DNA from: a virus
Reading direction: 5' to 3' (one strand)
DNA: 39,355 nt
Virus record (IMG/VR): IMGVR_UViG_3300023176_006354
Location: 1-39,355 of that record
Position numbers and translations under genes: made by a program. Of this stretch, positions 260-17,701 are shown piece by piece. The notes under the pieces were generated by a model, which had not been told where the DNA came from, did no database searches, and saw only the letters and a program-made list of their open reading frames with translations. Each line of letters opens with the position of its first letter. The stretch's first letter is position 1.

Positions 260-975
260 AAATCCTTCCTAATATGTATATACCAGATATCATCTGGATA
301 ATCTTTACTTTTTTCAGCGTGGATATATTTTAGATTATTTTTCTTTAGCATTTCTATAAATGTATACATATCACTTCCATGTTTTTTTGTATTTTCCATT
401 AAAATAATGTCACCATTATCTTTTAGATAATTATTTACATTATTAAAAAAATCTTTATGTATATTCCAATTATTATCTACAAATTTTCGATCTTCATGGC
501 ATAATTCATATTCTTCTGGATTATTCCAATTAGGAGGATTATCTTCCCAATTAAAATGCGGAGGATTACCAATTATTAAATCAAATTTTTGTTTAGGTAT
601 ATTCTTAAAATTATCAGAACAAATAAATTGTCCTCGGTTGTAAAGATTACTTGCTTTCAAAGAACTATTAATATTTTTTTCTAATGGAGCATGTATATCA
701 GCCATTATCATTTTATCAGCAATTCCTAATTTTAGCATAATAATAGAAAAATATGCTGGTCCACAACACCATTCTAAAGCATTATATATTTTATTATTTC
801 TTTTGTGTAATTGAATATAATTTATATATTCATCCCAATGTTTACTCCCATAGCCATCATCTTGACCTTTAGTATATATTTTTATACCATCACCTATAGC
901 TAATTCGATGTTTCTTAAAGGATATGGTATTGATTCATCATCATCTAAATATTTTGATTTTATCACAAACTTCAT
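256..975 (-). CDS. class I SAM-dependent methyltransferase (NPPH type)
   Basis: 239 residues with a Rossmann-type methyltransferase core. Motif I is ALEWCCGPAYF (about 66-76, where a Gly-rich loop binds SAM). An acidic residue follows at the end of strand beta-2 (MADIH, D93), and the motif IV tetrapeptide NPPH is at 137-140. (N/D)PP(Y/F/W/H) motifs are typical of enzymes that methylate a planar amino nitrogen, such as N6-adenine or N5-glutamine in the HemK/'MTS' group. The loop has CCGPA in place of the usual GxGxG, so SAM binding should be checked. The start ATG at 975 overlaps the carbamoyltransferase stop (ATGA), so translation is probably coupled. Nothing shows whether the substrate is DNA, RNA, protein or a small molecule. 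Confidence 0.65.
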   Translation of the reverse strand: MKFVIKSKYLDDDESIPYPLRNIELAIGDGIKIYTKGQDDGYGSKHWDEYINYIQLHKRNNKIYNALEWCCGPAYFSIIMLKLGIADKMIMADIHAPLEKNINSSLKASNLYNRGQFICSDNFKNIPKQKFDLIIGNPPHFNWEDNPPNWNNPEEYELCHEDRKFVDNNWNIHKDFFNNVNNYLKDNGDIILMENTKKHGSDMYTFIEMLKKNNLKYIHAEKSKDYPDDIWYIHIRKDL

Positions 976-2774
976 ATAATTTTACTATTCATCACAGTTA
1001 GTAGCTTACCATATTCTGGTAAATACAAATATTGAATATCACTTTGCTGTAAAGTCCACAAACAATCTTCAAGAGTTTCAACTAATGGTTCTCCACCAAG
1101 GTTGAAAGAAGTATTAAAGATAATTGGTATACCAGTTTTTTCTTTGAATGTTTTAATTATACGATAATATAAAGGATTCTCTTCTTCAGTTACTGTTTGA
1201 ATACGACATGATCCATCGACATGAATAATTGAAGGAATCTTTTCTTCAACACCATCTTTACACGATACTGCATACATCATATGCGGTGAATCTTTCATAC
1301 CACGTAAATCAAACCATTCATGCACGTCTTCAGCTAAAATAGATCCGGCAAATGGACGAAAATACTCTCGACGCTTGATTAAATTAACAAAATCTTTACC
1401 ATCTTCAAAGGTAGGATCAAACATTAAAGAGCGATTACCTAACGCCCTCGGCCCATTTTCTGAACGACCTTGAAAGCAAGCGACAATATTCTTTGTCGTC
1501 ATTAGTTCAACTACATGATCATCATCGCAGTCTTCTATTAAAGCTCCATACTGTTCTGCCAACTGTTCAATATCGGAATCATTATAATGATATTCTGGTC
1601 CAAGATAAATTTCTCGGCCATTGATTTTTTCTTCTGATTGAGATACTTCATAATAACCCCAAAGTGCTACACCGATTGCAGTACCTCCATCATTAGAAAT
1701 AGGTTCTACATATAATTCAATACCTTCTTCATTTAAGCGATCTAGAAAATAATAGTTAGCAACACAATTTAATGCATATCCTCCAGAAAATACAACTTTC
1801 TTTTTACCAGATAATTTAGAAGCTGTAAGTATTACATCTAATGCCATTTCTTGAGTTTGAGTTTGACAAGCATATGCGAGATCTCTACGATTTTGTAAAG
1901 TAGTAAGATCTGTTCCATCTTCACCAGAGTCTGTTAATTCTTTATATAAGTCCACATTTACCATAGCACCATTTGGATATCTAGGTACAATAACATTTCT
2001 ATCAGAAATTGGTAATCGCGTATCTTTTAGAAAAAGTTGAGGAATGTTTTCATTTGGTTTTCCATACGGAAATAATCCCATTGTTTTTCCAGCTTCAATT
2101 GCCCAGAATCCACAATATTCAGTAACGGCTTCATATACCTTTGTAATTCCAGCATGTCCGGACTTAAAATGTATGTGTGTGCCTTCTTCACCTAAAGAGC
2201 TAGAAGACTCTGCATAATTAATAGCATCAGTTATTGGTTCTCTAGAACCAGAATGTTTATAAAGAGTTTTGAAATTAGCTGGATATGAGCAATCAAATAT
2301 AGTTTCTGTTTCCCATAGATGAACTTTGTCAGAACCAAATGTTGCGCTTTTAACAGAACCAGCACCATCAATTACTACAGCCACAGCATCATCAAAGCCA
2401 GAGCGATAGAATGCGCATGCAGCATGAATTTTATGGTGTGAATGAGAAAGATCTACAACTTGTGGGTGATTCACTAAATCAGTTTTTCTATCAATTAATC
2501 CCATTTTACGTGCTAATCCAGTATACACGTTTTCACCCATATAATCTACTTTACCACAAGTATCTTCTAGCGATTGAGTATGAGAAATAAAAATATAATC
2601 TAATTTATCAGTATATTCTTTTACTTTCATCATGCATGCGTATGGGCCACCATCATATTTTGCACGAGTAAGTCTTTCTTCTTCTAAAGACCAAAGTATT
2701 TTTCCATCTTTAAGTAAACATGCGCCAGCATTATGGCCACGTGAAATACCCAAGATATATCCTGTATTATACAT
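972..2774 (-). CDS. NodU/TobZ-family O-carbamoyltransferase
   Basis: 600 residues, full family length. The N-terminal Kae1-like domain opens with GISRGHNAGACLL (9-21) and EEERLTR (31-37). The metal/carbamoyl-adenylate site HHKIHAACAF lies near 112-121, and a DGAG motif follows near 135. A GGYALNC motif sits near 328. The C-terminal carbamoyltransferase domain has ENGPRALGNRSL near 440 and RPFAGSI near 473. Family members move a carbamoyl group from carbamoyl phosphate via carbamoyl-AMP to a hydroxyl of a sugar or antibiotic. Homologues are frequent in T4-like marine phages, but their substrate is not known. GAGG gives a good ribosome site before ATG 2774. The gene lies between two oxygenases and two transferases, which suggests modification of a glycan or nucleoside rather than core metabolism. 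Confidence 0.9.
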   Translation of the reverse strand: MYNTGYILGISRGHNAGACLLKDGKILWSLEEERLTRAKYDGGPYACMMKVKEYTDKLDYIFISHTQSLEDTCGKVDYMGENVYTGLARKMGLIDRKTDLVNHPQVVDLSHSHHKIHAACAFYRSGFDDAVAVVIDGAGSVKSATFGSDKVHLWETETIFDCSYPANFKTLYKHSGSREPITDAINYAESSSSLGEEGTHIHFKSGHAGITKVYEAVTEYCGFWAIEAGKTMGLFPYGKPNENIPQLFLKDTRLPISDRNVIVPRYPNGAMVNVDLYKELTDSGEDGTDLTTLQNRRDLAYACQTQTQEMALDVILTASKLSGKKKVVFSGGYALNCVANYYFLDRLNEEGIELYVEPISNDGGTAIGVALWGYYEVSQSEEKINGREIYLGPEYHYNDSDIEQLAEQYGALIEDCDDDHVVELMTTKNIVACFQGRSENGPRALGNRSLMFDPTFEDGKDFVNLIKRREYFRPFAGSILAEDVHEWFDLRGMKDSPHMMYAVSCKDGVEEKIPSIIHVDGSCRIQTVTEEENPLYYRIIKTFKEKTGIPIIFNTSFNLGGEPLVETLEDCLWTLQQSDIQYLYLPEYGKLLTVMNSKII

Positions 2775-2786
2775 TATTAAACCTCA

Positions 2787-3362
2787 TCACTCTAAATTTA
2801 TATTAAACGATATTGATAGTCTTTCAATATCTATATATTGCTCTTTTACCCTGTGTAATAACCAACCTGGAAACAATAATAGTTCACCTTGTTTACAAAA
2901 TAAAGTTAATGTTGTTGATGCATTAACTATTTTTTTATTTGCAAGATTGCCACTTGTTGGATTTATAATTTCAAATCCTGCATCCTTGAAATTTTTTTTA
3001 TAATAATAAACTCCAGCAATATCAAATGCATTATGATCGTGCACAGGTGAATGTTGCAAATATTCTGTTTTTGTCATCCATGAAGAAATTATTTTTGGGT
3101 TTATTCCATTTCCACCAGATTCTTTTATATAATCATTTGTATATTTTATAATAGATTTTTCTAAATTTTTAAGATTATTATCTTTTATAAAATTTTTAGA
3201 AAACGTACTATCAGTTAATGATTGTATATTTGTTTCCCATTCTTTCTTTTTTTCGAATAAAACATTGTCATAGCATTGATCTATTTCATTTTGTATTCTA
3301 GAATATTCAAACCCAGTTATATGGGTACGCCATATTGGTGTACCAAAGATATCAAGCTTCAT
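2787..3362 (-). CDS. putative 2OG-Fe(II) oxygenase (TIGR02466-like)
   Basis: 191 residues. It opens MKLDIFGTPIW, the usual start of the small TIGR02466 oxygenases ('F.tPi'). The double-stranded beta-helix core shows SWMTKTEYLQHSPVHDHNAF (iron-site histidines at 108 and 110, Asn 111), then GVYYYK (117-122). The distal part reads LLLFPGWLLHRV with His170, followed by ERLSISFN with Arg181, expected to bind 2-oxoglutarate. All expected catalytic positions are therefore present. It lies 6 bases after the glycosyltransferase gene and 12 bases before the carbamoyltransferase gene, so the three are co-transcribed. The substrate is unknown. No strong ribosome site precedes ATG 3362, so it may depend on translation of the gene upstream. 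Confidence 0.75.
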   Translation of the reverse strand: MKLDIFGTPIWRTHITGFEYSRIQNEIDQCYDNVLFEKKKEWETNIQSLTDSTFSKNFIKDNNLKNLEKSIIKYTNDYIKESGGNGINPKIISSWMTKTEYLQHSPVHDHNAFDIAGVYYYKKNFKDAGFEIINPTSGNLANKKIVNASTTLTLFCKQGELLLFPGWLLHRVKEQYIDIERLSISFNINLE

Positions 3363-4474: not shown

Positions 4475-4485
4475 TAATTAATCAC
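4456..4485 (-). terminator. rho-independent terminator-like hairpin
   Basis: Minus-strand transcript reads GTGATTA (4479-4485), an 11-base loop, TAATCAC (4461-4467), then TTTTT (4456-4460). The stem is a perfect 7 bp but AT-rich, so termination may be partial. It overlaps the stop codon of the cysteine-rich gene at 4478 and would end the fibre transcripts coming from the right. Confidence 0.5.
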
Positions 4486-5593
4486 AATTATAATGTATTT
4501 TTATCATTCCCAATCTACCAGAGTCACCGCCACATGCTTGGCATCCACCGTCAACAACTCCTCCAGCTCCACCAGCGCCAGGTACTCCACAAAGATAACC
4601 TACACCATATAAGCTCGGTGCACCGTAACAACAACCATGACAAGTATTACCATACCAACAAATAGTGCAAATACAGTCTTCATATCTTGGAACAGGAGCA
4701 TTTTTTGTCCTAGCGCCATTTAGAGTACCACTTGGTATATACATACATGGCCATATTCCAGGAACTTTGAAGATTGAAGCATTTCTATCTACACCAAAAC
4801 CATCAGCACCTGCATCACATAATACTTTCGAATTCCAGAATGATGAAAAAACTGGAGGAATATTCACGTCATCATTGCCTGAATCCCAACAAAAGTTCCA
4901 TCCACTACAACAGTTTGGTGCACAGCCATCATTATTCTGATTACCTACAGGAATCGAACACAAACCAGAATTCGTGTTTGCAAATCCTCCAGCTGTCTGA
5001 GAATCTTCTTGCCATTGAGTATAACAATGCGATTTCCCTGCCATAGCGCATGCGCTATAACAACAATATTGTCCACTTGAAGTTCCTGGGACAAGAGTGA
5101 AGTAACTATCACCGCCACTTACTCCAGGAGTTGTTTGATATGCATAACAACAATATGCACACCCCGCGCATATACATATGCATTCACCAGCTTCTACATC
5201 TATTGTTGTTGCTATATACGCGCCGTTCGGCCCAAAAGGAGCACCGCCACAACAACAGTTTGAACTTGTACCTCCACCTGGACCCCACATTTCAATCATA
5301 ACTCTAGAAACACCAGCTGGTACACACCATGTGCAGGCAGCCCCGCATCTAAAATAACCATTGGAATTCCATATACATATATGGCAATTCTGGTACTCAT
5401 TCTCTGCAACATAAGCATCTAATTGAGTTCTCCATGTAGAAGAAATGTTTTCCTCACCAGTATCGGCCGTACCAATAATGTAATCGCCAGGGCCGACGTC
5501 ACCAGTAAAATCAAGCGGTGCAGCGCCTGCAAGCTTTTTATCGATGAGTTCGTTATTAGCTCTTATACCGGCGTATAATAGTAAATCTGCCAT
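4478..5593 (-). CDS. cysteine-rich, glycine-rich putative adhesin (copy A)
   Basis: 371 residues with about 35 cysteines, mostly as C, CC or CCC clusters. A short N-terminal part (1-70) is Cys-free and may be the virion attachment. The body then contains CTWCVPAGVSRV, WGPGGG, NCCCGG and DVEAGECICIC, and ends with CGGDSGRLGMIKI. The same framework occurs in the paralogue at 6312-7436, 0.7 kb upstream. The VPAGV...WGxGGG pattern matches the glycine-rich beta domain of phage tail fibres; the dense cysteines are not part of that common form. No signal peptide is present. Role inferred as a distal tail-fibre adhesin because it lies in the fibre cluster. The cysteines could form disulphides after lysis or bind metal. 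It is the last gene before the terminator-like hairpin. Confidence 0.6.
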   Translation of the reverse strand: MADLLLYAGIRANNELIDKKLAGAAPLDFTGDVGPGDYIIGTADTGEENISSTWRTQLDAYVAENEYQNCHICIWNSNGYFRCGAACTWCVPAGVSRVMIEMWGPGGGTSSNCCCGGAPFGPNGAYIATTIDVEAGECICICAGCAYCCYAYQTTPGVSGGDSYFTLVPGTSSGQYCCYSACAMAGKSHCYTQWQEDSQTAGGFANTNSGLCSIPVGNQNNDGCAPNCCSGWNFCWDSGNDDVNIPPVFSSFWNSKVLCDAGADGFGVDRNASIFKVPGIWPCMYIPSGTLNGARTKNAPVPRYEDCICTICWYGNTCHGCCYGAPSLYGVGYLCGVPGAGGAGGVVDGGCQACGGDSGRLGMIKIHYNCD

Positions 5594-6311: not shown

Positions 6312-7436
6312 TTAACAAAAGCTCACACGAACTGCTGCACCGCGACCGCTGTCGCCACATACACTATTATTACCACCCATCGCATGGGAGAATACTGACC
6401 CGTGCCCAGGCATACATCCAAATGCAGCGCCGCCAATTCCTCCTTGGGTAGCTGTAGAACATTGCGATCCACAACACGTACCAGAAGTATATTGAATGCA
6501 GAAATCACTTCCAGGATGTTTCTGTGTAGTTGCACCACTTGCTCCAAAACAAACAGTTGGTGCATAACAAAGCCAACCGTAGTGATTAGTATCATAACAC
6601 ATAGCATTCCATCGACGTGGTATCCAACCACATACTGGATTTCTAGACGCGTCTATAGTTGTGGGAGTTTGTGTGCAATGAGACGCAATATATGGTATAA
6701 CACCACATGTGGCGCAGCTATTAAAACAATAATCATAACCACTATTACAAAAACATGAACCTGACGGAGACGTACTAGAAGGATTCATCCATCTACATTG
6801 ATATTGATTGTCCTTAGCTATAGAACCATTAGCGTGGCTAACATACTCAGCTGATGATGGATCATACCCATATGTTACTCCATACTGGACAGAACAAGAC
6901 CATGAACAAAGCGTACCGCATCCGCCGGCAGCACACAACGATGTAATTCCTGGGCCTTCAATTCTGGAACATCCAGGCGTTAACTGGATTCCACCGCGAT
7001 ATCCCATACAGCAGTGTGTACATGTATTGCATATAACGTATTGTTCTCCTGGAGTTACATCCATTACTACAGAAATAAATTCACCAGTAGATCCGCCTGG
7101 ATGACCACCACAACAACAACCACTTGAAGAACCACCTCCACTGCCCCAAAGTTGAAATCCAACCCGTGATACACCGGCCGGTACAGTCCACGTACAAGAA
7201 CTTCCACACCTATTATAATTGTTATCCCAAACACAGAAAACGCCAGTAGAAGTAGTAGGAGAATCTGAAGGTAAGCCAGTGTCATCAATTTTTGGAATAT
7301 CTTCTGCCCAATTATCAGGATTTAACACTCTTAATGTACTTAATACATCTGGGGTTAAACCCAAAGCGTCGCCAATAGATTGAGAATATTCTTCTAAATC
7401 TTCTAAAATTTTATTGTATATTAATACATTAGACAC
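6312..7436 (-). CDS. cysteine-rich, glycine-rich putative adhesin (copy B)
   Basis: 374 residues with about 33 cysteines. Residues 1-67 are Cys-free and partly helical (MSNVLIYNKILEDLEEY), probably the attachment part. The body shows RCGSSCTWTVPAGVSRV, WGSGGGSSSGCCCGG, DVTPGEQYVICNTC and a final VCGDSGRGAAVRVSF. All of these align with copy A at 4478-5593, while the middle third differs. The start is GTG at 7436, with AGGAG 8 bases upstream, and a late promoter lies at 7463-7470. The two copies probably arose by duplication and diverged in the receptor-facing part. There is no secretion signal, as expected for a virion protein folded in the cytoplasm, which makes the many cysteines unusual. 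Confidence 0.6.
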   Translation of the reverse strand: MSNVLIYNKILEDLEEYSQSIGDALGLTPDVLSTLRVLNPDNWAEDIPKIDDTGLPSDSPTTSTGVFCVWDNNYNRCGSSCTWTVPAGVSRVGFQLWGSGGGSSSGCCCGGHPGGSTGEFISVVMDVTPGEQYVICNTCTHCCMGYRGGIQLTPGCSRIEGPGITSLCAAGGCGTLCSWSCSVQYGVTYGYDPSSAEYVSHANGSIAKDNQYQCRWMNPSSTSPSGSCFCNSGYDYCFNSCATCGVIPYIASHCTQTPTTIDASRNPVCGWIPRRWNAMCYDTNHYGWLCYAPTVCFGASGATTQKHPGSDFCIQYTSGTCCGSQCSTATQGGIGGAAFGCMPGHGSVFSHAMGGNNSVCGDSGRGAAVRVSFC

Positions 7437-7473: not shown

Positions 7474-10400
7474 TTACGATACAGTTATTGTATCAATTAA
7501 TCCAGTAGTTGTATTATAGTTTACAACAACATTTTGTGTAGCAACTGGGCCAGTTTCAGTCCAACTTTCAGGCCTATAATACGTGGCATCAGCACCACCA
7601 AATAGACTCCAATTTGTACCGCCAGTTCCCCAAACAATATTTGAATATGTAATATCACCAACTTCAAAATATGTTGGATAACCATTTGAATCATATACCG
7701 CAGTAGAATTATCAAATGTTTGAGTAAAGAAAGCTTCACTTATATCAAATGATAATGTTATCCATTCAGGAGCTGTAGCGCCGCTATTAACTTGTAATAC
7801 TTGTCCAGCAGTACCAATATCTAATAAAGCATTAGTATCACCAGTTTGACCATATATTAATTGACCATCCGCAGTTGTTCCTGCATTTGCATCAACATAA
7901 GTTTTAACAGCTTGTTCAGTTGGAACTGCAAGGTTTGAATTACCTGATAAAGTTCCATCTGAAGAAAATTCATTAATTGATTCACCAAGTTGTGCACCAA
8001 TTGAACCAAGTCGTAAGCTAGTCAAACCAGAAAGATCGAATGCAGAAGCATCAAGTGTTGCTCTACCAGTTGCTTGGTCTACTCTAAAGTAGTTACCAAT
8101 TCTAAAGTTACCATCTTGGTCTGTTGATACATAGTAAACGCGTCCTGGAAGACTTTCAATAACTTCGTTACCCTGTGAAGGAGCTTGTGTTGGTACGCCT
8201 GGGTAATTAGTAGTTGTTCTACCACCAGTACCAATACTAAGGAAATCATGACCAGTTAATCGAATTTGCGAATAGTTATAGCGAATAATAAATGATTGTC
8301 CCTGATAACTATCAGCAGTATCTAGTTTTTCTTGTGATATTGTAACAGTAGCTGATCCAGAAACAGGATCCCATCCTGTAACAGCTGTTACAATATATGT
8401 TTGTGTATCTGTGCCTCGATTATATGTTTCAGTTGAATCAGCATCATTTTGAGCTCCAAGTAATGGACCTTCAACAAATTCAATTGAACCACCAGCAATT
8501 GGTTCTTGTGCTAATCCAGTTAATACTAATGCAAATCCTTGTTGACCTTGATGAGCGCTTGGTGCTAATGTAGCAGTTACTCCATCTTGTGCAGTAATTG
8601 TCGACCCATCTTGAAATAATGGATAATTATCTGTACCAAACCAATATTCTAATTGTCCAGTATCAGCAGTAACTGTAATCTCATTACCCATACCGGTATG
8701 GACACCACAATTATAATAATACGTTCCTGCTGTTGGAGCAACTAATACTACATATCTATTTGTAGATGCTGCAAAATTAGCCTGATAATCACCCCAAGTT
8801 ACTTCTGCTCCATCTATCCAGAAAGTTTGGCCAGCTATAGGAGTACCATCATCAGCAGCTGCTGAAATATAAAGAGGATGACCAGTATTAGTTGTATTAT
8901 TTTGTTCAAAGATATATGTTCTACCTTCAGCAAAATAAAGTTCAGACTTGATTACACCATCTATTTGAAATGCATTTCCAACATTATCGGTTAAATCGGA
9001 TCTTACTGATACTTTATACGTATCGCCATGTGTACCATATTTGATATTCGATATAACAATTCGATGAGCAGTAGGATCAACTAAATTGGTTTGAATATTT
9101 TCAATTTGTCCTTCAATGCTCGTTCCAGTAACACCAACATCAAATCCAGTTAATGCTGTACCAACTAAGACTCTTTCAGCAGTACCACCAGAAATATAAG
9201 TGGTAAATCCAGTACCATCAACTGTAGAAGTTAATCCAGAATCATTATATAATTCAATGTTGTTTGCATCAACAACAGAAGCAAAATAGCTATTACTATT
9301 TAGCTCAACCATACCAAGAACGCCAGATATATTATTCACTGGATCGCCGTTGACATAACCGTGTCCGTTAATTTGTAATCTAACAGGATTTGAACGAAGC
9401 GCATCTGTTATAGTTTCAATTACTAAACCATATCCAGCTAATTCTCTTGCATCAATAAAGTTTGTAAGAGCAGGGTTGCTTGAAGGTTTAAAATTATTTC
9501 CATCAATTACTTGCGCCCACCATGTTCTCTTAGTAGTATTGGTTGCATCACCTAAAATACCACGCCATGTTGTGTTACCACCATTATCGGTGACATTATC
9601 AAAATAAAACGCTTGACCATCTACCAAATTATGAGCAGTAGAAGTTGTTAAAGTCATTTCATCAGCTTGGTTAGCAGTTGCAGTTAATCCGGTGGCTGTT
9701 CCACCCACAGCTGCAGTAGAAGATGTAATTGTATCACCAACGGAAAATCCGGCAGGTGTCGAAAGTGTTGTAGCATCATAAGTAAGCGTATCGCCATACA
9801 TGATACCAGTTGTATCTGTCACATCTTCGTCTGAATCAAAACCTCTTGATACAGATCCATAAGTACCGTAAGAGTTATTACAGTTCAATCCGCGGATTTT
9901 ACCACCACCAGATGCTGCAAAACCAAAGTCACAGTAATATGTAAAACACGATACAATTTCTGATAAACCGCGATCTTTTACCCAGAAACCAACACCACCG
10001 TCATGGACTTGTGTAAAAGTGTGGAATACCATCGATCCACCAGAACCACTAGGTCCAACAGATCCATCAATAATAGCACCAACACCACCTGTAGAGAATG
10101 CAGAAGATTCTTTAACATAAGGCGACTTAGTAATTAATGAGTTTGGATTCAATCGACAATAAACACCACCAATAGTAGCATCTTCAATATCTTCTGGATC
10201 ACTAACTCCAAGTGCAAATCCAGTTAAACCTTTCAGCAACAGGCCTTCAATCATAACACCCGAAGAAAGGTAAAACATTGTTGCTTCATTATTTGGAGTT
10301 ACTCCATCATCTGAAATACCAACACCAAAACCATTGTCATTTGTAGTATCTGGTTGAATAATACAGTTACGTTGACCGTCGCCTACAATTGTTACATTTT

Positions 10401-11784
10401 CAGGAACGACAATTGGAAGTTGTTCGTTATATGTACCATCTTTTATAAAGATTGTTGCAGGCGAACGATTTGCCATATCAGCAGCAATATAATCACAAGC
10501 AAATCTTAAGCTTGCAAATGCATAGTCAATTGCTTTACCATGATCGTTATCATCTGCGGATGAAACTGAATCTTCAGAAACATAAAAGATTTTATCATTT
10601 TCATTAGCAAATTGCCAAGAGTAATTCTGACCGTCTGGAGTTTGTAAAAATTTACCAGCATTGCCAGTAGTACTTGGAAGAACATAAGCTGCGCCTGTTA
10701 CAAAAGTATCCCATTTGCCGGCAGCTTGATCTAAGAATAAATCAGTACCTGAAGTATGATCTTCTGTGCAAATATATGTGCTTACTGAATATGATACAAT
10801 ATCATCTTTTAAGTAATTAGTACCTGTTGTCCAAGCGCCCATATAACGAACGCCAGAATTATATTTTTCCCATTTACCAGCAGCAAGATCAGTTGCAAAA
10901 TCTGTTGACGTATGTGCAACCAAAGAAATATAAGAATTACCACCATAAGTAACTATGGTGCTGATTGCGTAATATGTTGAAGTATTCCAATCACCGGCTG
11001 TTGTTACACCGGAATAGAAAAGATCCCAGTCTGCAGGAGTATCACTTGGAGTTGATCCGGTAGAGGTTTGTAAAGCAATATATGTATTACCACCAAATAA
11101 AACGGTTTGCCCAGGAACATATTCTGTGGCAGCATCATAGTTGCCTTGGAAATCATTTCCCTTTTGGAACAGTGTCCAAAATCCAGTATCTTCTGGAATA
11201 TTACCAGTTGTTACTGTAGTACAAACATAAAGATTAGGACCATAACCAACAACATCTCCAGGCTGGTATGTCGTTCCAGCATTATATACACCTTCAGGAG
11301 AAATACCATCAACCATTGTTTCCCAATAAACTGGGTCACTAATTTGTTGTCCGGTGCTATCTTGTACAGCAATATATGCCCTACCACCAAATTTTACAAT
11401 ATCATTTTTTTGATAACTTGTTAATGCATTATATTCGCCTTCCCATTGAATACCGTCGACCATTTGCGACCAATATGTGTTATTGGGAGGAGTTTGACCA
11501 GTTGAGTCTAGTATAGCAATGTAAACTACACCACCATGTGCTACACCATCGCCAATACGATATTGTGTAGCAGCATCGTACTCTCCTTGGAATTTAAATC
11601 CTTCAACCATTAATGCCCAATAAGCATTATTGGTAGGAAGATTTCCAGCTGTTCTTACTGGATTACTATAAACATAAACATTACCACCGTACTTAACGAT
11701 GTCGTTAATTTCATAAGTGGTGGCCGCATCGTATTGACCAGCAAAATGAAATCTTAATTTACCTAAATCTATAAGTTGTGTCAT
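7474..11784 (-). CDS. large multidomain tail fibre with N-terminal repeats and cupredoxin-like domain
   Basis: 1436 residues. Residues 13-360 hold seven repeats of about 48 residues with the pattern G-x-Y/W-x-x-x-T-x-Y...DxVxYGGxxYxx...W, like the small carbohydrate-binding modules of chitinases and fibres. Next comes a pectate-lyase-like right-handed helix start (about 390-640: SPATIFIKDGTYNEQLPIVV, then NVTIVGDGQ). A domain at about 950-1040 reads GHPLYIS (His969) and YYYNCGVHTGMG (Cys1026, His1029, Met1032), matching a type-1 copper ligand set. The distal part has QDGNFRIGNYFRVDQATG and LAVPTEQAVKTYVD, sequences common in marine T4-like fibre proteins. It overlaps the upstream 86-residue gene by four bases (ATGA). 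Long-tail-fibre role is inferred from size, repeats and neighbours. Confidence 0.7.
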   Translation of the reverse strand: MTQLIDLGKLRFHFAGQYDAATTYEINDIVKYGGNVYVYSNPVRTAGNLPTNNAYWALMVEGFKFQGEYDAATQYRIGDGVAHGGVVYIAILDSTGQTPPNNTYWSQMVDGIQWEGEYNALTSYQKNDIVKFGGRAYIAVQDSTGQQISDPVYWETMVDGISPEGVYNAGTTYQPGDVVGYGPNLYVCTTVTTGNIPEDTGFWTLFQKGNDFQGNYDAATEYVPGQTVLFGGNTYIALQTSTGSTPSDTPADWDLFYSGVTTAGDWNTSTYYAISTIVTYGGNSYISLVAHTSTDFATDLAAGKWEKYNSGVRYMGAWTTGTNYLKDDIVSYSVSTYICTEDHTSGTDLFLDQAAGKWDTFVTGAAYVLPSTTGNAGKFLQTPDGQNYSWQFANENDKIFYVSEDSVSSADDNDHGKAIDYAFASLRFACDYIAADMANRSPATIFIKDGTYNEQLPIVVPENVTIVGDGQRNCIIQPDTTNDNGFGVGISDDGVTPNNEATMFYLSSGVMIEGLLLKGLTGFALGVSDPEDIEDATIGGVYCRLNPNSLITKSPYVKESSAFSTGGVGAIIDGSVGPSGSGGSMVFHTFTQVHDGGVGFWVKDRGLSEIVSCFTYYCDFGFAASGGGKIRGLNCNNSYGTYGSVSRGFDSDEDVTDTTGIMYGDTLTYDATTLSTPAGFSVGDTITSSTAAVGGTATGLTATANQADEMTLTTSTAHNLVDGQAFYFDNVTDNGGNTTWRGILGDATNTTKRTWWAQVIDGNNFKPSSNPALTNFIDARELAGYGLVIETITDALRSNPVRLQINGHGYVNGDPVNNISGVLGMVELNSNSYFASVVDANNIELYNDSGLTSTVDGTGFTTYISGGTAERVLVGTALTGFDVGVTGTSIEGQIENIQTNLVDPTAHRIVISNIKYGTHGDTYKVSVRSDLTDNVGNAFQIDGVIKSELYFAEGRTYIFEQNNTTNTGHPLYISAAADDGTPIAGQTFWIDGAEVTWGDYQANFAASTNRYVVLVAPTAGTYYYNCGVHTGMGNEITVTADTGQLEYWFGTDNYPLFQDGSTITAQDGVTATLAPSAHQGQQGFALVLTGLAQEPIAGGSIEFVEGPLLGAQNDADSTETYNRGTDTQTYIVTAVTGWDPVSGSATVTISQEKLDTADSYQGQSFIIRYNYSQIRLTGHDFLSIGTGGRTTTNYPGVPTQAPSQGNEVIESLPGRVYYVSTDQDGNFRIGNYFRVDQATGRATLDASAFDLSGLTSLRLGSIGAQLGESINEFSSDGTLSGNSNLAVPTEQAVKTYVDANAGTTADGQLIYGQTGDTNALLDIGTAGQVLQVNSGATAPEWITLSFDISEAFFTQTFDNSTAVYDSNGYPTYFEVGDITYSNIVWGTGGTNWSLFGGADATYYRPESWTETGPVATQNVVVNYNTTTGLIDTITVS
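10700..11748 (-). repeat. seven tandem ~48-residue coding repeats in the fibre gene
   Basis: The repeats open with GQYDAATTY, GEYDAATQY, GEYNALTSY, GVYNAGTTY, GNYDAATEY, GDWNTSTYY and GAWTTGTNY. Each continues with a D-x-V-x-Y/F-G-G-x-x-Y core and ends in a Trp-containing strand and a Gly. They are diverged at DNA level, so they are old protein repeats, not recent DNA duplications. Confidence 0.7.
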
Positions 11785-12973: not shown

Positions 12974-13177
12974 TTATTTTTTTTCTGGCGAGAGCTCCTT
13001 TATTTGAATTTTTTCCCATTTTCCAATAGGGCATTCAGCGCCAGAAAGTCTAACTTTTGCTGGCATAAAGCATCCGCATTTTTTACATACATTCAGTTTA
13101 GTTAAATTAACACACCGATTGCAAAGAGCAATTCTCCTTACAACTTCAGGGTGTCCTTTTGCTTCTATACCAAACAT
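12974..13177 (-). CDS. small zinc-ribbon-like protein
   Basis: 67 residues with six cysteines: CNRC (19-22), CKKCGC (31-36) and C49 in a CPIGKW motif. Two CxxC pairs plus an extra Cys suggest one zinc site. Small proteins with this CxxC...CxKCGCFM...K...CPxGKW layout recur in T4-like phages beside fibre or glycosyltransferase genes (DUF6171-like); their function is not known. It has its own late promoter (13193-13200) and a GGTGA ribosome site 4 bases before ATG 13177. It follows the possible glycosyltransferase directly. Confidence 0.65.
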   Translation of the reverse strand: MFGIEAKGHPEVVRRIALCNRCVNLTKLNVCKKCGCFMPAKVRLSGAECPIGKWEKIQIKELSPEKK

Positions 13178-13206: not shown

Positions 13207-14256
13207 TTAAGCTACAGGTTTATTATTTTCTAAATTAAGTGGAGGTCTTTTTTGTTTTTTTGCTTCATCAACTAAGCCTCTACCTTGTGCTAATGGTTTA
13301 TATAGTTCTCTTAATTCTTGAGATTTTTTATAATAAGCATCGATTCTTTCTTCATAATCATCTTGGAATTCAAAAATTAATCCACTCCATTTACATGCTA
13401 ATATATTTCCAAGTTTTCTTTGTGCGGCTTCAATTCCTTCTTTACGTTGTGTAATAGTCATAATTCTTGCAAAGGGAAGATATACCCCAGCGCCTTCACC
13501 AGAAAATACAGATATATTTTTTACGTTTTTACCGAGTGCTGTACCAGTTATAGAAAATTCAGAAGCTGTAGTCGTATAAACTGTTTTACAATTCTTAAGT
13601 AATTCAGCCCCTGAAACATCTTTATCAATAATTCGATCCCATCCCATTTTCCCAGCAATTCTTTGTACAACATCAGGAATAGTAAGTGGATGAGGTTTAA
13701 TCATTGCTTCTGGATCTTCAAATATGATTCTTTCAACAATTTCTAAATCAGCGAGATCTAATAAATTATGTCCAGGTAAAAATATTATATCATCGATATT
13801 TTTATATTTTTCTGGCAATTCATTTAATACATACTTATCAGCAAATGCATTGATAAATTTTTCTAAAGCTTCTTCGCCTGCTTTACCAGATTCTTCCTTT
13901 GCCGCAAAATCTTGAAGTCTGCAATTAATTTCTCTTGATTGCGTACAAATATACACACCACCAGCGGGAAATTCTGTATAAGTATATTCATGAAAATCAG
14001 TACCTTGCACAGAGCTTACATCATAAGTAGCATAAAAATGTGGAGGTGATTTTTCTCTTACAATATGTTCTATTGATTCGGCCCAATTATTTCTTGATGA
14101 ACGTTTAGTATATGGACCAATCTTACTTGCATCACCACCTTTTTCTTTCATAAGAAATTCATAGAGCCTAGGTTGGCACTTAGGCTCTACTTCTGGAAGT
14201 GACGGAGCTTTTTCTCCAGGAACAGCTAGATATTGCGTGGAACAATCTAATTTCAT
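13207..14256 (-). CDS. putative GT-B glycosyltransferase (KPHP motif), in fibre cluster
   Basis: 349 residues. The middle reads IIFLPGHNLLD (about 157-168), then PEAMIKPHPLTI with KPHP at 187-190. Further on are LLKNCKTVYTTTASEFSITG (about 218-237) and ALGKNVKNISVF. A KPHP block followed by a short segment ending in 'T..S.f...al..Gk.v' is the nucleotide-sugar or CDP-polyol binding half of capsule-type (KpsS/LipB-like) and glycerophosphotransferase GT-B enzymes. The N-terminal half is not recognised. The C-terminus is Lys/Arg-rich and helical. AAGGT is a good ribosome site before ATG 14256. It is separated from the left glycosyltransferase by 9 kb and lies among fibre genes, which suggests virion or fibre modification (inference). 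A structural role cannot be excluded. Confidence 0.5.
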   Translation of the reverse strand: MKLDCSTQYLAVPGEKAPSLPEVEPKCQPRLYEFLMKEKGGDASKIGPYTKRSSRNNWAESIEHIVREKSPPHFYATYDVSSVQGTDFHEYTYTEFPAGGVYICTQSREINCRLQDFAAKEESGKAGEEALEKFINAFADKYVLNELPEKYKNIDDIIFLPGHNLLDLADLEIVERIIFEDPEAMIKPHPLTIPDVVQRIAGKMGWDRIIDKDVSGAELLKNCKTVYTTTASEFSITGTALGKNVKNISVFSGEGAGVYLPFARIMTITQRKEGIEAAQRKLGNILACKWSGLIFEFQDDYEERIDAYYKKSQELRELYKPLAQGRGLVDEAKKQKRPPLNLENNKPVA

Positions 14257-14290: not shown

Positions 14291-14791
14291 TTATAGATTT
14301 TTTACATCAATTGTATATGGATCTACAACTCCTTCAGTTACATCAGCAAGTTCTTGCATTCGCGCATCAAGTACAGCAATATCATCTGTAGGTGTTAATC
14401 CTAATCTTACTTGACGATGATATCTTGCAACTTTCCAATCTAAATTTCGTAATAAACGATCTCTAGTTGCACGAACATAAGCCCAGCGTTTTCGTACACG
14501 AGTTTCTTGGTCTTTTTCTGGAACTTCAACTAACGTATAAGTTCTATACCAAGTTCCTGTTTCTTCGTTTTTCCAGGCAGTGCCGGGATACATTCGATGT
14601 GTAGCAGTTTCTACCACATCAACATCTGATTCAGGAATTGGATGCACTCTTACATACTGAGTTGCTGCTAAAGAAACATCAGTAATAGGTGTAGGCAACG
14701 TTGTATTCGCAAGATTGTCTCGCACCTCGTTTTCGTTTAGTGGAAATTCCAAAACCTCATTGGTTTCTTTATTCACTCTTGCGTATAGCAT
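14291..14791 (-). CDS. Tfa/gp38-like tail-fibre assembly protein
   Basis: 166 residues. It opens with YARVNKETNEVLEFPLNENE, a typical 'm.y.....g.v...pl...' start of tail-fibre assembly proteins. The C-terminal half is helical: VRATRDRLLRNLDWKVARYH, then LGLTPTDDIAVLDARMQELADV. This matches the 'r..RN.lL..tDw........l......y...L..l.d' helix pair in gp38/Tfa chaperones. Such proteins help fibre tips trimerise and sometimes stay on the tip. It lies directly downstream of the Thr/Tyr-rich protein (14807-16339), its likely client, with an AAGGAG ribosome site before ATG 14791. Confidence 0.65.
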   Translation of the reverse strand: MLYARVNKETNEVLEFPLNENEVRDNLANTTLPTPITDVSLAATQYVRVHPIPESDVDVVETATHRMYPGTAWKNEETGTWYRTYTLVEVPEKDQETRVRKRWAYVRATRDRLLRNLDWKVARYHRQVRLGLTPTDDIAVLDARMQELADVTEGVVDPYTIDVKNL

Positions 14792-14806: not shown

Positions 14807-16339
14807 TTATTCAGTAAACCACGTAGTGGATCTTGAAGTTGTTACGGTTGTATTATTAGTATATGTAGTATCAAAAAATGTTGTTCTGTTAGTTACATTT
14901 GATGTAGCTTGACTAGTTGGATGCTGCGTTGATGCATCTGTAATACGGCTTGTTGGAACAGGCGTATTAGTAATATAGTCTGTTGCAATAGGTGTATCAG
15001 TAATATAGTCTGTTGAAAACGTTGTTAGATACAATGTTTGTACTGTATATTCAGTAATTGCTTGGTATGGATACTCAGTAGGTGTGCTCCAAGCTGTAAC
15101 AGTGCTTTGCGAAGTTGGATATTGTGTTTCAACGCTATAATCAGTTGGTTGAAATACAGTAGGCAACGCTTGTGTTGTATTAAAACAGTTTGGATACGTT
15201 GTTGGTACTGGATAATTAGTATATCCTATTACTGTTGGATAAGTAGTTGTACGAGATGTTACGTGTGCCGGAACATAGTATTGCGACACTCTACAAGATT
15301 GATAACTTGTTGGACATATTACACTAGAACACGAAAAATCTCTTGTGTGTACGTATGTTGTTGTTCCAGACGTTTGCCGACTAGTTGGAAAATATGAATC
15401 GTAATATGTAATCCCAGAAGTTACAACTTCATATGGAACACCAGTATTATAGCAACTTTGATAAGTTCCAGTACATGGCTGACAATTGTTTCCTTCTTGT
15501 ATACACCACTGCTCCATTGCGAGATCACCGTTTGGTGTACATGGAATCCCCGCAATTGGATCTTCTTGACCCGAAAATGGAACCTGTGCACAAGTGTTAC
15601 GCAAAGATATATAAGTTGTTGGTCCACTTGTGTTTCTAGATGTTGGGACAAAAGTATCAAATGTTGTAGTAAAAGATACAGCAACTGTTGTTGAATATTC
15701 AGCAGTAACTGTACAACCAGAGGCTGAACAACCTATGAAACCAGATTGACCGGTTTCGTTTCCATTTTCATCGTAATAAACACTACCGCTTGCTGGTCCA
15801 ACTTCAGTATTTGTTGTGACAGTATCACAAATGGTTGTATTTTCAAAAGCGCCTGGAGTTGTATATGAAGTGACATTGCTCGTATTTTCAATTATCGCAG
15901 AAGTATACGTGGTATTTACTTGGTATGGATCGCAAGTCACAAACGTTGTACTTTGAGGATATCCAGTGCTTACTGAAAAAACTGTGATCACAGGATACGT
16001 ATAACTAGTAGTAGTATTTCGCGAATAGTCTGTTGGAACTAGCGAAATGTACGTAGTTGGATTTGAATATAAAGTTCCTAATGGATAATAATCAGAAGTA
16101 ATATATGGAGTAGGCACAGCATATATTGTAGGCACCGGAGTGTTAGTAGTATAATCTGTAGGAAACGTAGTCGTTTTAGGAGTTAAAAATACAGTATCAA
16201 ATGTTGTTGGATATACAGTAGAATAACTGGTCACGGCCGACGTTTGCACCTGATACGAGGTACTTCTTGTTGTTGGAAAATAAGTAGGGTATGTAGTAAA
16301 CTGACCCTTTGCTCCGCCTAACCATATTCTACGTGACAT
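14807..16339 (-). CDS. Thr/Tyr/Ser/Pro-repeat fibre or adhesin
   Basis: 510 residues of low-complexity beta-type repeats; about one residue in four is Thr, with Tyr, Ser and Pro next. Recurrent units are TTYPT, TDY, TNTPVPT, PTSR and TSGTTTY, spaced every 8 to 14 residues. A Cys-containing middle (about 195-345) holds CSASGC, CIQEGNNCQPC and CSSVICPTSYQSC. There is no signal peptide or membrane segment. Alternating Thr/Tyr strands with Pro turns fit a long thin beta fibre, and the Thr/Ser density would suit O-glycosylation. The repeat is shared by none of the other genes here. The gene starts at ATG 16339 overlapping the previous stop (TAATG) and is followed by the Tfa-like gene, which supports a fibre role. 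Confidence 0.6.
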   Translation of the reverse strand: MSRRIWLGGAKGQFTTYPTYFPTTRSTSYQVQTSAVTSYSTVYPTTFDTVFLTPKTTTFPTDYTTNTPVPTIYAVPTPYITSDYYPLGTLYSNPTTYISLVPTDYSRNTTTSYTYPVITVFSVSTGYPQSTTFVTCDPYQVNTTYTSAIIENTSNVTSYTTPGAFENTTICDTVTTNTEVGPASGSVYYDENGNETGQSGFIGCSASGCTVTAEYSTTVAVSFTTTFDTFVPTSRNTSGPTTYISLRNTCAQVPFSGQEDPIAGIPCTPNGDLAMEQWCIQEGNNCQPCTGTYQSCYNTGVPYEVVTSGITYYDSYFPTSRQTSGTTTYVHTRDFSCSSVICPTSYQSCRVSQYYVPAHVTSRTTTYPTVIGYTNYPVPTTYPNCFNTTQALPTVFQPTDYSVETQYPTSQSTVTAWSTPTEYPYQAITEYTVQTLYLTTFSTDYITDTPIATDYITNTPVPTSRITDASTQHPTSQATSNVTNRTTFFDTTYTNNTTVTTSRSTTWFTE

Positions 16340-16725
16340 TACTGATTATATCTCCAAACCTGTACTGCTTTCCAATTTGTTCCATTATCTAAAGTTTCTA
16401 ATACAATCATTGTTGCTGCATTAGTTCCAGTGTTCATTGTGGGAGTATTTCCTTTATCAAATCGAGTTCCAGGCGGCCAAGTAATTGAACCAGCGCCAGG
16501 TTGTTCTAATATGAAATACGCAGTATTCACCGCCCCAGTAACTAGACCAGTAATTGTAAATGTTGTATTGCCAGTAATGGTTGCAGTAATTGTTTCGCCG
16601 TTTGACAGATCTACTGACTGGGCTCCTGATATACTGCCTAAAGCTTGTGTTTTACTTTTGAGAGCGGCATTAACTACATTACGATCATCATCGATAACTG
16701 TAACACCACCAACCTTGATTGCCAT
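16339..16725 (-). CDS. small virion structural protein (fibre-like)
   Basis: 128 residues. It starts MAIKVGGVTVIDDDRNV, a start motif common in short structural proteins of marine phages. A beta domain follows with LSNGETITATITGNTTFTIT, then FILEQPGAGSITWPPGTRF and NWKAVQVWRYNQ at the end. This single-domain design resembles the knob/decoration modules found inside longer fibres ('f.l.l.q..g..titwp...'). AAGGAG lies 8 bases before ATG 16725. Its stop overlaps the start of the Thr/Tyr-rich protein, so the two are translationally coupled and may act together. Confidence 0.65.
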   Translation of the reverse strand: MAIKVGGVTVIDDDRNVVNAALKSKTQALGSISGAQSVDLSNGETITATITGNTTFTITGLVTGAVNTAYFILEQPGAGSITWPPGTRFDKGNTPTMNTGTNAATMIVLETLDNGTNWKAVQVWRYNQ

Positions 16726-16759: not shown

Positions 16760-17701
16760 TTATTGATTTTCTATTTTAGCAGATAATTCCTTAATAGCCT
16801 CTATTAATACTGGAATAAGAGCATCATATGAAACGCGCTTAATTCCATCTGAACCAGTATTTACAACAAGTGGTAATACTTCTTCTACTTGTTGTGCAAC
16901 TACACCGATTGATGACTTACCGCTATCTTTCCAATCAAAATATACACCTTCTAATTGTTTTGCAATTTCCAGTGCGTTTGGAATTCTATTTATATTTGTT
17001 TTTAATGTTATATCAGACGTTGAATTAAAATTTGTTGCTGATATATCACCTGCAGCTAAATTTGCTAAATTGAAACTAGCATCACCAGTATCAATACCAC
17101 TTGGACTATCTGGTTCTAATGTATAACCATCATAAAATTTCCAAGTATCATCAGTCGCATCTCTAAATAATCCTGCGTGTGCATAACCACTTGCTAAACC
17201 AGTATCATTATAACCACCTGCAATACCTAAATCAGGTTCAAGATAAGTTTTAGCATATGCCGTTCCGCCAGAAGTATATGTATCAACATTTGTAGAAGCA
17301 ATTGTAAATGATGTTGCATTAGCAGAAGTAATTGCTACATCAGTAACATTAAAACTTGTTGGTGTAACACCAATTACAGTTACAAAATCTCCAGCAACAT
17401 AATTATTATCTGCTGTATATACAACATTAACACCGTCACCAACCGCATTTGTAATTGTAGCATTAACTCGACGATTCAAATAAATCATACTTTCAGCGAC
17501 TGAAAGATTTTGAGTATTTACAAAAGTTGTTGTACCAGATACCGTTAAGTCTCCATCAATATCAACTACTCCAGTAAACGATGGACTAGCTAATGGTGCT
17601 TTTAGATCAAGTTCATCACTAATATTCGTGAAGTTTGTATCAACTTCTGAATTCAGTAGTCTTGATCCTTTAACGCTTCTAAGTGTTAATGATACAGACA
17701 T
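16760..17701 (-). CDS. tail fibre with C-terminal S74 intramolecular chaperone
   Basis: 313 residues. The N-terminal half has marine-fibre features: LRSVKGSRLLNSEVDTNFTN, then APLASPSFTGVVDIDGDLTV and AESMIYLNRR. The last 88 residues are a Peptidase_S74 domain. STSDITLKTNI has Ser229 and Lys234 (the +5 spacing of the self-cleavage dyad), followed by LEGVYFDWKD, GVVAQQVEEVLP and a final helix (YDALIPVLIEAIKEL). S74 domains trimerise the fibre and then cleave themselves off after the segment before Ser229. The mature fibre is thus predicted to be about 228 residues. It lies in the fibre cluster, 8 bases after the coiled-coil gene. Confidence 0.85.
   Translation of the reverse strand: MSVSLTLRSVKGSRLLNSEVDTNFTNISDELDLKAPLASPSFTGVVDIDGDLTVSGTTTFVNTQNLSVAESMIYLNRRVNATITNAVGDGVNVVYTADNNYVAGDFVTVIGVTPTSFNVTDVAITSANATSFTIASTNVDTYTSGGTAYAKTYLEPDLGIAGGYNDTGLASGYAHAGLFRDATDDTWKFYDGYTLEPDSPSGIDTGDASFNLANLAAGDISATNFNSTSDITLKTNINRIPNALEIAKQLEGVYFDWKDSGKSSIGVVAQQVEEVLPLVVNTGSDGIKRVSYDALIPVLIEAIKELSAKIENQ

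Follow-up and report, generated by a model that had tools for sequence, protein, structure and literature searches.

A threonine-repeat protein encoded beside phage tail-fibre genes is probably the glycan acceptor of an adjoining phage-only glycosyltransferase

Introduction

The serine-rich repeat adhesins with GtfA/GtfB, AIDA-I with Aah and HMW1 with HMW1C each combine a repeat-rich adhesive protein with a dedicated transferase encoded by an adjoining gene. These are secreted bacterial proteins, served by enzyme families other than the one described here, and they come without a phage chaperone or tail module. We know of no Thr-repeat acceptor in the glycosylation of mycobacteriophages. As far as it is summarized in PMC12619734 (citing Freeman 2023), the mycobacteriophage system resembles our proposal in being phage-encoded glycosylation of virion proteins, and differs in that the C-termini of capsid and tail-tube proteins are glycosylated.

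According to the available part of PMC11339370, Clostridium Maf adds Kdo and Neu5Ac to Ser and Thr of flagellin; therefore, CMP-Kdo and CMP-Neu5Ac can serve as donors for transfer to Ser/Thr. The Maf/flagellin system (CMP-Pse/Leg, also CMP-Neu5Ac and CMP-Kdo) is like the one proposed here in that a dedicated enzyme puts a CMP-ulosonic acid onto Ser/Thr of one surface-fibre protein, whereas the acceptor here is a phage low-complexity repeat. The Maf domain is absent from the 10 Pfam families matched at E ≤ 0.1 by the 34 phage enzymes that we aligned.

The retaining Kdo transferases KpsC (GT107), WbbB (GT99) and KrkA (GT140) resemble the phage enzymes in their GT-B model and KxHP motif. In the sections of PMC12887879 that we drew on, (K/R)XHP is the CMP-binding motif of sialyl- and Kdo-transferases, KrkA itself having Ser at the first position, and QXXXD carries the nucleophile of Kdo transferases of the KpsC, WbbB and KrkA type. 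The phage enzymes differ in having no QXXXD nucleophile and an invariant Asn in its place, and the acceptors of the known enzymes of this type are saccharides, as far as the excerpts of PMC10148158 and PMC9587256 go. CMP-Kdo is made by E. coli BL21 (PMC10148158).

Results

The window, by which we mean the whole 39,355-base virus record analysed here, carries a T4-like baseplate and tail region on its minus strand, encoding a tail tube cap, gp25-, gp6-, gp7- and gp8-like proteins (the gene numbers are our naming) and a VrlC-like protein (phrog_358). After the baseplate genes, the order on this strand is as follows.

16760..17701, minus strand: tail-fibre protein, 313 aa, with a C-terminal Peptidase_S74 intramolecular chaperone (PF13884, E = 1.6e-13)
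16339..16725, minus strand: tail-fibre tip-like domain protein, 128 aa, proposed docking site (phrog_7760 and phrog_9017, tail fibre)
14807..16339, minus strand: Thr-repeat protein, 510 aa, proposed glycan acceptor on the tail fibre (from composition and register; no Pfam or PHROG match)
14291..14791, minus strand: Phage_tail_APC/Tfa-like accessory protein (MLYA... family), 166 aa, proposed assembly chaperone of the Thr-repeat protein
13207..14256, minus strand: predicted GT-B glycosyltransferase, 349 aa, phrog_26179, with the KxHP motif K187-P-H-P

The Thr-repeat gene starts with an ATG at 16339, and one base is common to its start codon and the stop of the upstream gene. Its frame is uninterrupted on the minus strand, and the plus strand of 14807-16339 is packed with stops. 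An earlier note, made from the letters of this DNA, had read the two genes that follow as a Tfa-like chaperone and a KPHP-type enzyme, and we found both in place (14291-14791 and 13207-14256).

Thr accounts for 123 of the 510 residues (24.1%), bearing out the quarter given in that note, and this content is the highest among the 30 main minus-strand ORFs compared (median 7.7%). Ser and Thr together make up 34%, and there are 46 Tyr, 41 Pro and just 2 Lys residues. The Cys-rich centre noticed earlier is also real, with 14 Cys between residues 136 and 385. The units TTYPT, TNTPVPT and TDY do occur, more sparsely than had been claimed (two, two and five copies, respectively), and their supposed return every 8-14 residues was not borne out: Thr-Thr autocorrelation gave a register of 4 residues, with z = 4.5 at lag 4 and z = 6.3 at lag 8 when the protein is compared with shuffled versions of itself. 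A second Thr stands four residues on for 48 of the 123 Thr, and the pattern can be written as T-[TS]-[YFR]-x.

The mean z over a set of 42 non-identical Thr-repeat proteins, among them that of the window, was 4.4, 4.0, 2.7 and 1.9 at lags 4, 8, 12 and 16; z exceeded 3 at lag 4 in 27 of the 42, and some have a 6-residue register instead. The ends are conserved, with MSRRxWLGxxKGQ at the N-terminus and TSRSTTWFT[EQ] at the C-terminus. When relatives were aligned in four divergent pairs, 51-65% of Thr was kept versus 24-36% of other residues, and the same codon was used at just 29-40% of the kept Thr. Because Thr is kept while its codons turn over, the repeat is one of protein and not of DNA. Tandem Repeats Finder detected a single 2.2-copy array within the gene. 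That no common fibre family with this repeat comes to mind, as the earlier reading had it, is consistent with the missing Pfam or PHROG match. The tblastn search of 50,697 phage records with the protein gave no match at E 1e-5 and, with the limit raised, a single one at E = 3, pointing to DLP_6; in our view, the result is blank because low-complexity filtering probably masks the sequence.

The AlphaFold monomer of the Thr-repeat protein, built from an alignment of six sequences, had a mean pLDDT of 35.4. The repeats scored about 25 and formed no strands, in what is a weak test with six sequences, and the Cys-rich centre was the sole weakly beta part. The protein had earlier been proposed as a beta-fibre and glycan acceptor. 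The strandless, low-pLDDT monomer leaves the first half unsupported and leaning towards refuted; six sequences and a monomer being what they are, this is weak evidence against a beta-fibre and no refutation. The second half, a putative acceptor, agrees with the gene linkage found in both directions and with the GT-B model of the neighbouring enzyme (see below). A fold of such low confidence is in keeping with a polypeptide that depends on modification or on partners, for which six sequences and a monomer are likewise a poor test.

All 34 aligned enzymes match phrog_26179 ("unknown function"), the window's at E = 3.8e-62. The AlphaFold (AF2) model of the enzyme reached a pLDDT of 87.4 and a pTM of 0.83. 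Its best structural match is KpsC (6mgc; Z 10.8, rmsd 4.0 Å over 224 residues, most of the chain; about 12% identity); the top eight rows of the comparison are all KpsC or WbbB (Z 10.8 to 9.6), and KrkA scored 9.5 and 9.2. After these Kdo transferases come another GT-B enzyme at 8.5 and a polysialyltransferase at 8.4. We thus predict from the model a GT-B glycosyltransferase whose nearest relatives are the CMP-Kdo transferases KpsC and WbbB.

The KxHP motif is present in all 34 enzymes, with K187, H189 and P190 invariant. By contrast, QXXXD is absent at its site upstream of HP in 34/34, where an invariant N164 stands instead (register set manually); two QXXXD matches elsewhere among the 34 were taken as chance. 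A CMP-sugar donor is therefore likely and the KpsC mechanism is not, and with Asn in that position homology does not settle donor and mechanism, so we did not file the enzyme as a member of GT99, GT107 or GT140. Pfam/NCBIfam searches with the 34 enzymes gave no significant known glycosyltransferase family (best E 0.0061, in 1/34), and no true relative reached significance in a PDB profile search (KpsC at E = 0.66); a kinesin fragment (E = 0.006), the best match of that search, was taken as chance. The BFVD search returned two matches at E ≤ 0.001, one being a Vibrio phage protein that we take for a family member.

Since tblastn with the Thr-repeat protein found no relatives, the enzyme was used instead. 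A homologue occurs in 45 phage records, of which 35 bear the name of Vibrio, 9 that of Caulobacter and 1 that of Stenotrophomonas. CMP-Kdo would require Gram-negative hosts, and these three genera are all Gram-negative. Among viral contigs, searches with the Thr-repeat protein, the chaperone or the enzyme yielded no relative, a search with a 626-aa neighbour yielded five loci, and a three-sequence enzyme alignment returned just Lullwater and Cr30 again. In bacterial genomes the enzyme was found in 1/399 and 1/398, both times in the same Oxalobacter genome that had been used as the centre. It is nearly absent from the sampled bacterial chromosomes, and we read it as a probable phage-only transferase.

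We inspected the phage regions of 7 of the 45 records. In Cr30, Lullwater, BL199, KVP40 and QD01, a Thr/Ser-repeat ORF lies directly upstream of the enzyme or one small gene away; in Lullwater the repeat protein is gp41 and the enzyme gp42, and the Cr30 partner is short and Tyr-rich, and its autocorrelation has no clear period. In Vibrio phage D527 (L016, 4928-5482), such an ORF is open and in place, is missing from the listed annotation, and is homologous to KVP40.0254 (phrog_30374). In Stenotrophomonas phage DLP_6 (L015, 3736-7602), a gp7-like baseplate wedge protein is extended at its C-terminus by a fused Thr-repeat stretch of about 750 residues, and the enzyme gene sits elsewhere in the record, far from the fusion. 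The fusion places this type of repeat on a predicted virion protein.

A DNA pattern for the conserved enzyme motif matched 52 viral and 14 genome stretches, of which 51 and 2, respectively, encode the enzyme. The forward test comprised 63 non-redundant enzyme loci, 56 of them with at least 700 bases upstream; same-phage duplicates (L001, L018-L021, L037, L047) and all loci of the reverse scan described below were left out. To be counted, an ORF had to lie on the same strand, be 80 aa or longer, have at least 28% Thr in some 80-aa window and end within 1 kb; these criteria were fixed after a first look at the data. A Thr-repeat ORF was found within 1 kb upstream of the enzyme in 52 of the 56 testable loci (16 of 19 clusters when the enzymes are grouped at 60% identity), versus 3 of 107 for other genes of the same loci (at least 250 aa, not Thr-rich themselves). 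Looking for the same gene order in relatives, a check proposed earlier, thus came out in favour of the pairing. Of the seven loci too short upstream, four could be extended (counted in the 56 under their extended ids), and the ORF was present in 4/4. No ORF was counted at four loci: one at a contig end, where a fragment of 68 aa is left (T 43%); Cr30, whose partner has 116 aa (T 20% and Y 19%); Oxalobacter, which has two ORFs of 80 aa; and DLP_6, with its repeat fused elsewhere. The order at the Oxalobacter prophage-like locus is two TSR ORFs, enzyme and APC protein.

The reverse scan used a Ser-Trp-Thr-Thr-Ser-Trp-type repeat pattern that is blind to the enzyme, and 81 stretches matched. ORFs below 100 aa, with T80 below 0.30, or with less than 300 bp downstream were left out; these include L238 (62 aa, enzyme present) and L227, L249 and L274, which run into the edge of the contig or stretch. 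Sixteen Thr/Trp-repeat ORFs were at least 100 aa long and had at least 300 bases downstream, near-identical loci among them (L224, L268 and L270; L038 and L044). The enzyme lies directly downstream in 13 of the 16, and 10 of the 13 were new. The misses are L252, probably a frame artefact, and L220 and L267, with no enzyme within 2.9 and 9.9 kb downstream, respectively. As a control, a generic scan for ACN every 12 bases gave at least 120 stretches; among these, 80 loci were analysed, and the enzyme was found in 0/80 of these generic Thr-rich period-4 ORFs, many of them TPTP-like. Hence, the enzyme link is specific to this kind of repeat. The adjacency is conserved in both directions (52/56 and 13/16), as in a dedicated acceptor-transferase cassette.

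Between the Thr-repeat gene and the enzyme gene lies a single gene family in 26 non-identical cases, 17 of which were aligned. The window's 166-aa member falls below the Pfam cut-off for PF16778 (E = 0.0026, 18.0 bits versus 26.6) and matches phrog_4912 at E = 3.7e-4; 7 of the 17 members match PF16778 at E ≤ 0.1, the best at 1.2e-8, and the Oxalobacter APC protein, which lies after the enzyme, matches it at E = 3.5e-15 (56 bits). On the other side, 59 loci were compared with a model of the window's fibre tip; in 34 of them, including ten that had seeded the model, the ORF immediately before the Thr ORF matches, and there the tip domain is the end of the upstream ORF. Several loci missed by the model, Lullwater and Cr30 among them, have a similar-looking but unmatched end domain. 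The usual module is fibre tip, Thr-repeat protein, Phage_tail_APC-like chaperone and enzyme. Two plasmids of Campylobacter fetus came from a plasmid search made later. One of them, phage-like, has a fibre tip, then two ORFs with TSW repeats (T 16 and 19%) and the enzyme, followed by a protein that by eye resembles the APC family.

Discussion

The conservation of the repeat as Thr, its near-obligate linkage to the enzyme gene and the features of the enzyme suggest to us, with a probability of roughly 0.7, that the Thr-repeat protein is a tail-fibre-associated glycan acceptor of the adjoining phage-only enzyme. From them we infer the acceptor role, the sugar, the order of steps, the place in the virion and the purpose as follows. 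The Thr-repeat protein would be made in the cytoplasm, mostly without a fold of its own. The cognate GT-B enzyme would bind a CMP-sugar through its KxHP motif and attach the sugar to many Thr/Ser hydroxyls spaced four residues apart; this sugar is probably an acidic ulosonic acid, for instance Kdo or one that resembles sialic acid. The APC-like protein may then pass on the modified product, which would form a sleeve or adhesive at the fibre tip, stiff, charged and mucin-like.

Another way for the two genes to travel together is through the same host glycan: the enzyme would alter host LPS, for example by adding or capping Kdo, against re-adsorption or superinfection, and the Thr-repeat protein would be the matching receptor-binding tail protein. 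The transferases of the pelagimyophage host-recognition cluster are read in this way in the part of PMC7029224 available to us, and the fold of the enzyme is indeed closest to Kdo transferases of capsule and LPS. However, the enzyme is linked to one type of repeat across otherwise unrelated tails (Autographiviridae, T4-like and prophage) and shows no link to tail genes generally (3/107); moreover, known receptor-binding domains are folded, whereas no fold is predicted for the repeat, and its Thr is kept over other residues. We therefore regard this explanation as unlikely.

More improbable still, the Thr-repeat protein might be an unglycosylated trimeric beta-fibre or an amyloid-like thread, with a structural 4-residue register, and the enzyme would target something else in the virion. 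Its beta-branched and aromatic residues favour strands, and a monomer from six sequences tests this weakly, but the repeats at pLDDT of about 25 are strandless, and an enzyme acting elsewhere leaves the near-obligate pairing unexplained. That the enzyme hypermodifies phage DNA and sits in the tail region by chance seems to us very improbable: it adjoins the same gene in 52 of 56 loci, and its nearest folds use CMP-ulosonic acids, which to our knowledge occur in no DNA modification. What speaks for it is that phage glycosyltransferases are often DNA-modifying, at least in the passages of PMC12619734 consulted.

Returning to the acceptor reading, a fuller version of it is possible, albeit on the doubtful side. 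In this version, phages would have a protein O-glycosylation of their own: a GT-B family that uses CMP-sugars and is as yet unclassified would transfer Kdo, or some other ulosonic acid, to a Thr polypeptide of period 4, and a tail appendage of many unrelated Gram-negative phages would wear a sugar of the host LPS, serving adhesion, stealth or phage-phage exclusion. Our searches of open-licence papers for phage virion glycosylation and Thr-rich phage proteins gave no description of a module of Thr-repeat protein and enzyme, and our data suggest that many phages build a sugar-coated tail part by an apparently undescribed system. It would assign a function to phrog_26179 and to Thr-repeat ORFs that low-complexity-filtered searches miss, and it predicts glycosylated tail parts in cultured phages, namely KVP40-like Vibrio phages, Caulobacter phages Cr30, Lullwater and BL199, and Stenotrophomonas phage DLP_6. 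So compact an enzyme, acting on a simple repeat, would be of use in glycoengineering as well.

Some further features of these loci may be recorded. In L228, L231 and L220, an ORF at or beside the Thr-repeat gene ends with a segment like that of an intein, "...NDxFxANGILTHN", which may be a fibre end that cleaves itself. In the window, a 67-aa protein with two CxxC pairs (zinc-ribbon-like, phrog_13558) is encoded at 12974-13177, between the enzyme and the next fibre genes. The 1436-aa tail fibre at 7474-11784 (phrog_9851) has in its N-terminal part repeats of a module of about 50 aa, of the kind "FQGEYDAATxYxxGDxVxYGGxxYxxxxxSTGxxPxxxTYW", which we take to resemble carbohydrate-binding modules. 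Two phrog_35878 paralogues (4478-5593 and 6312-7436) lie on either side of a phrog_9740 gene, one of them with a weak match to a tail fibre assembly family. Still on this strand, the downstream part at 972-3362 encodes two enzymes that could tailor a virion or surface glycan: a Nol-like carbamoyltransferase (phrog_1601, E 1e-162) and a 2OG-Fe(II) oxygenase (phrog_81).
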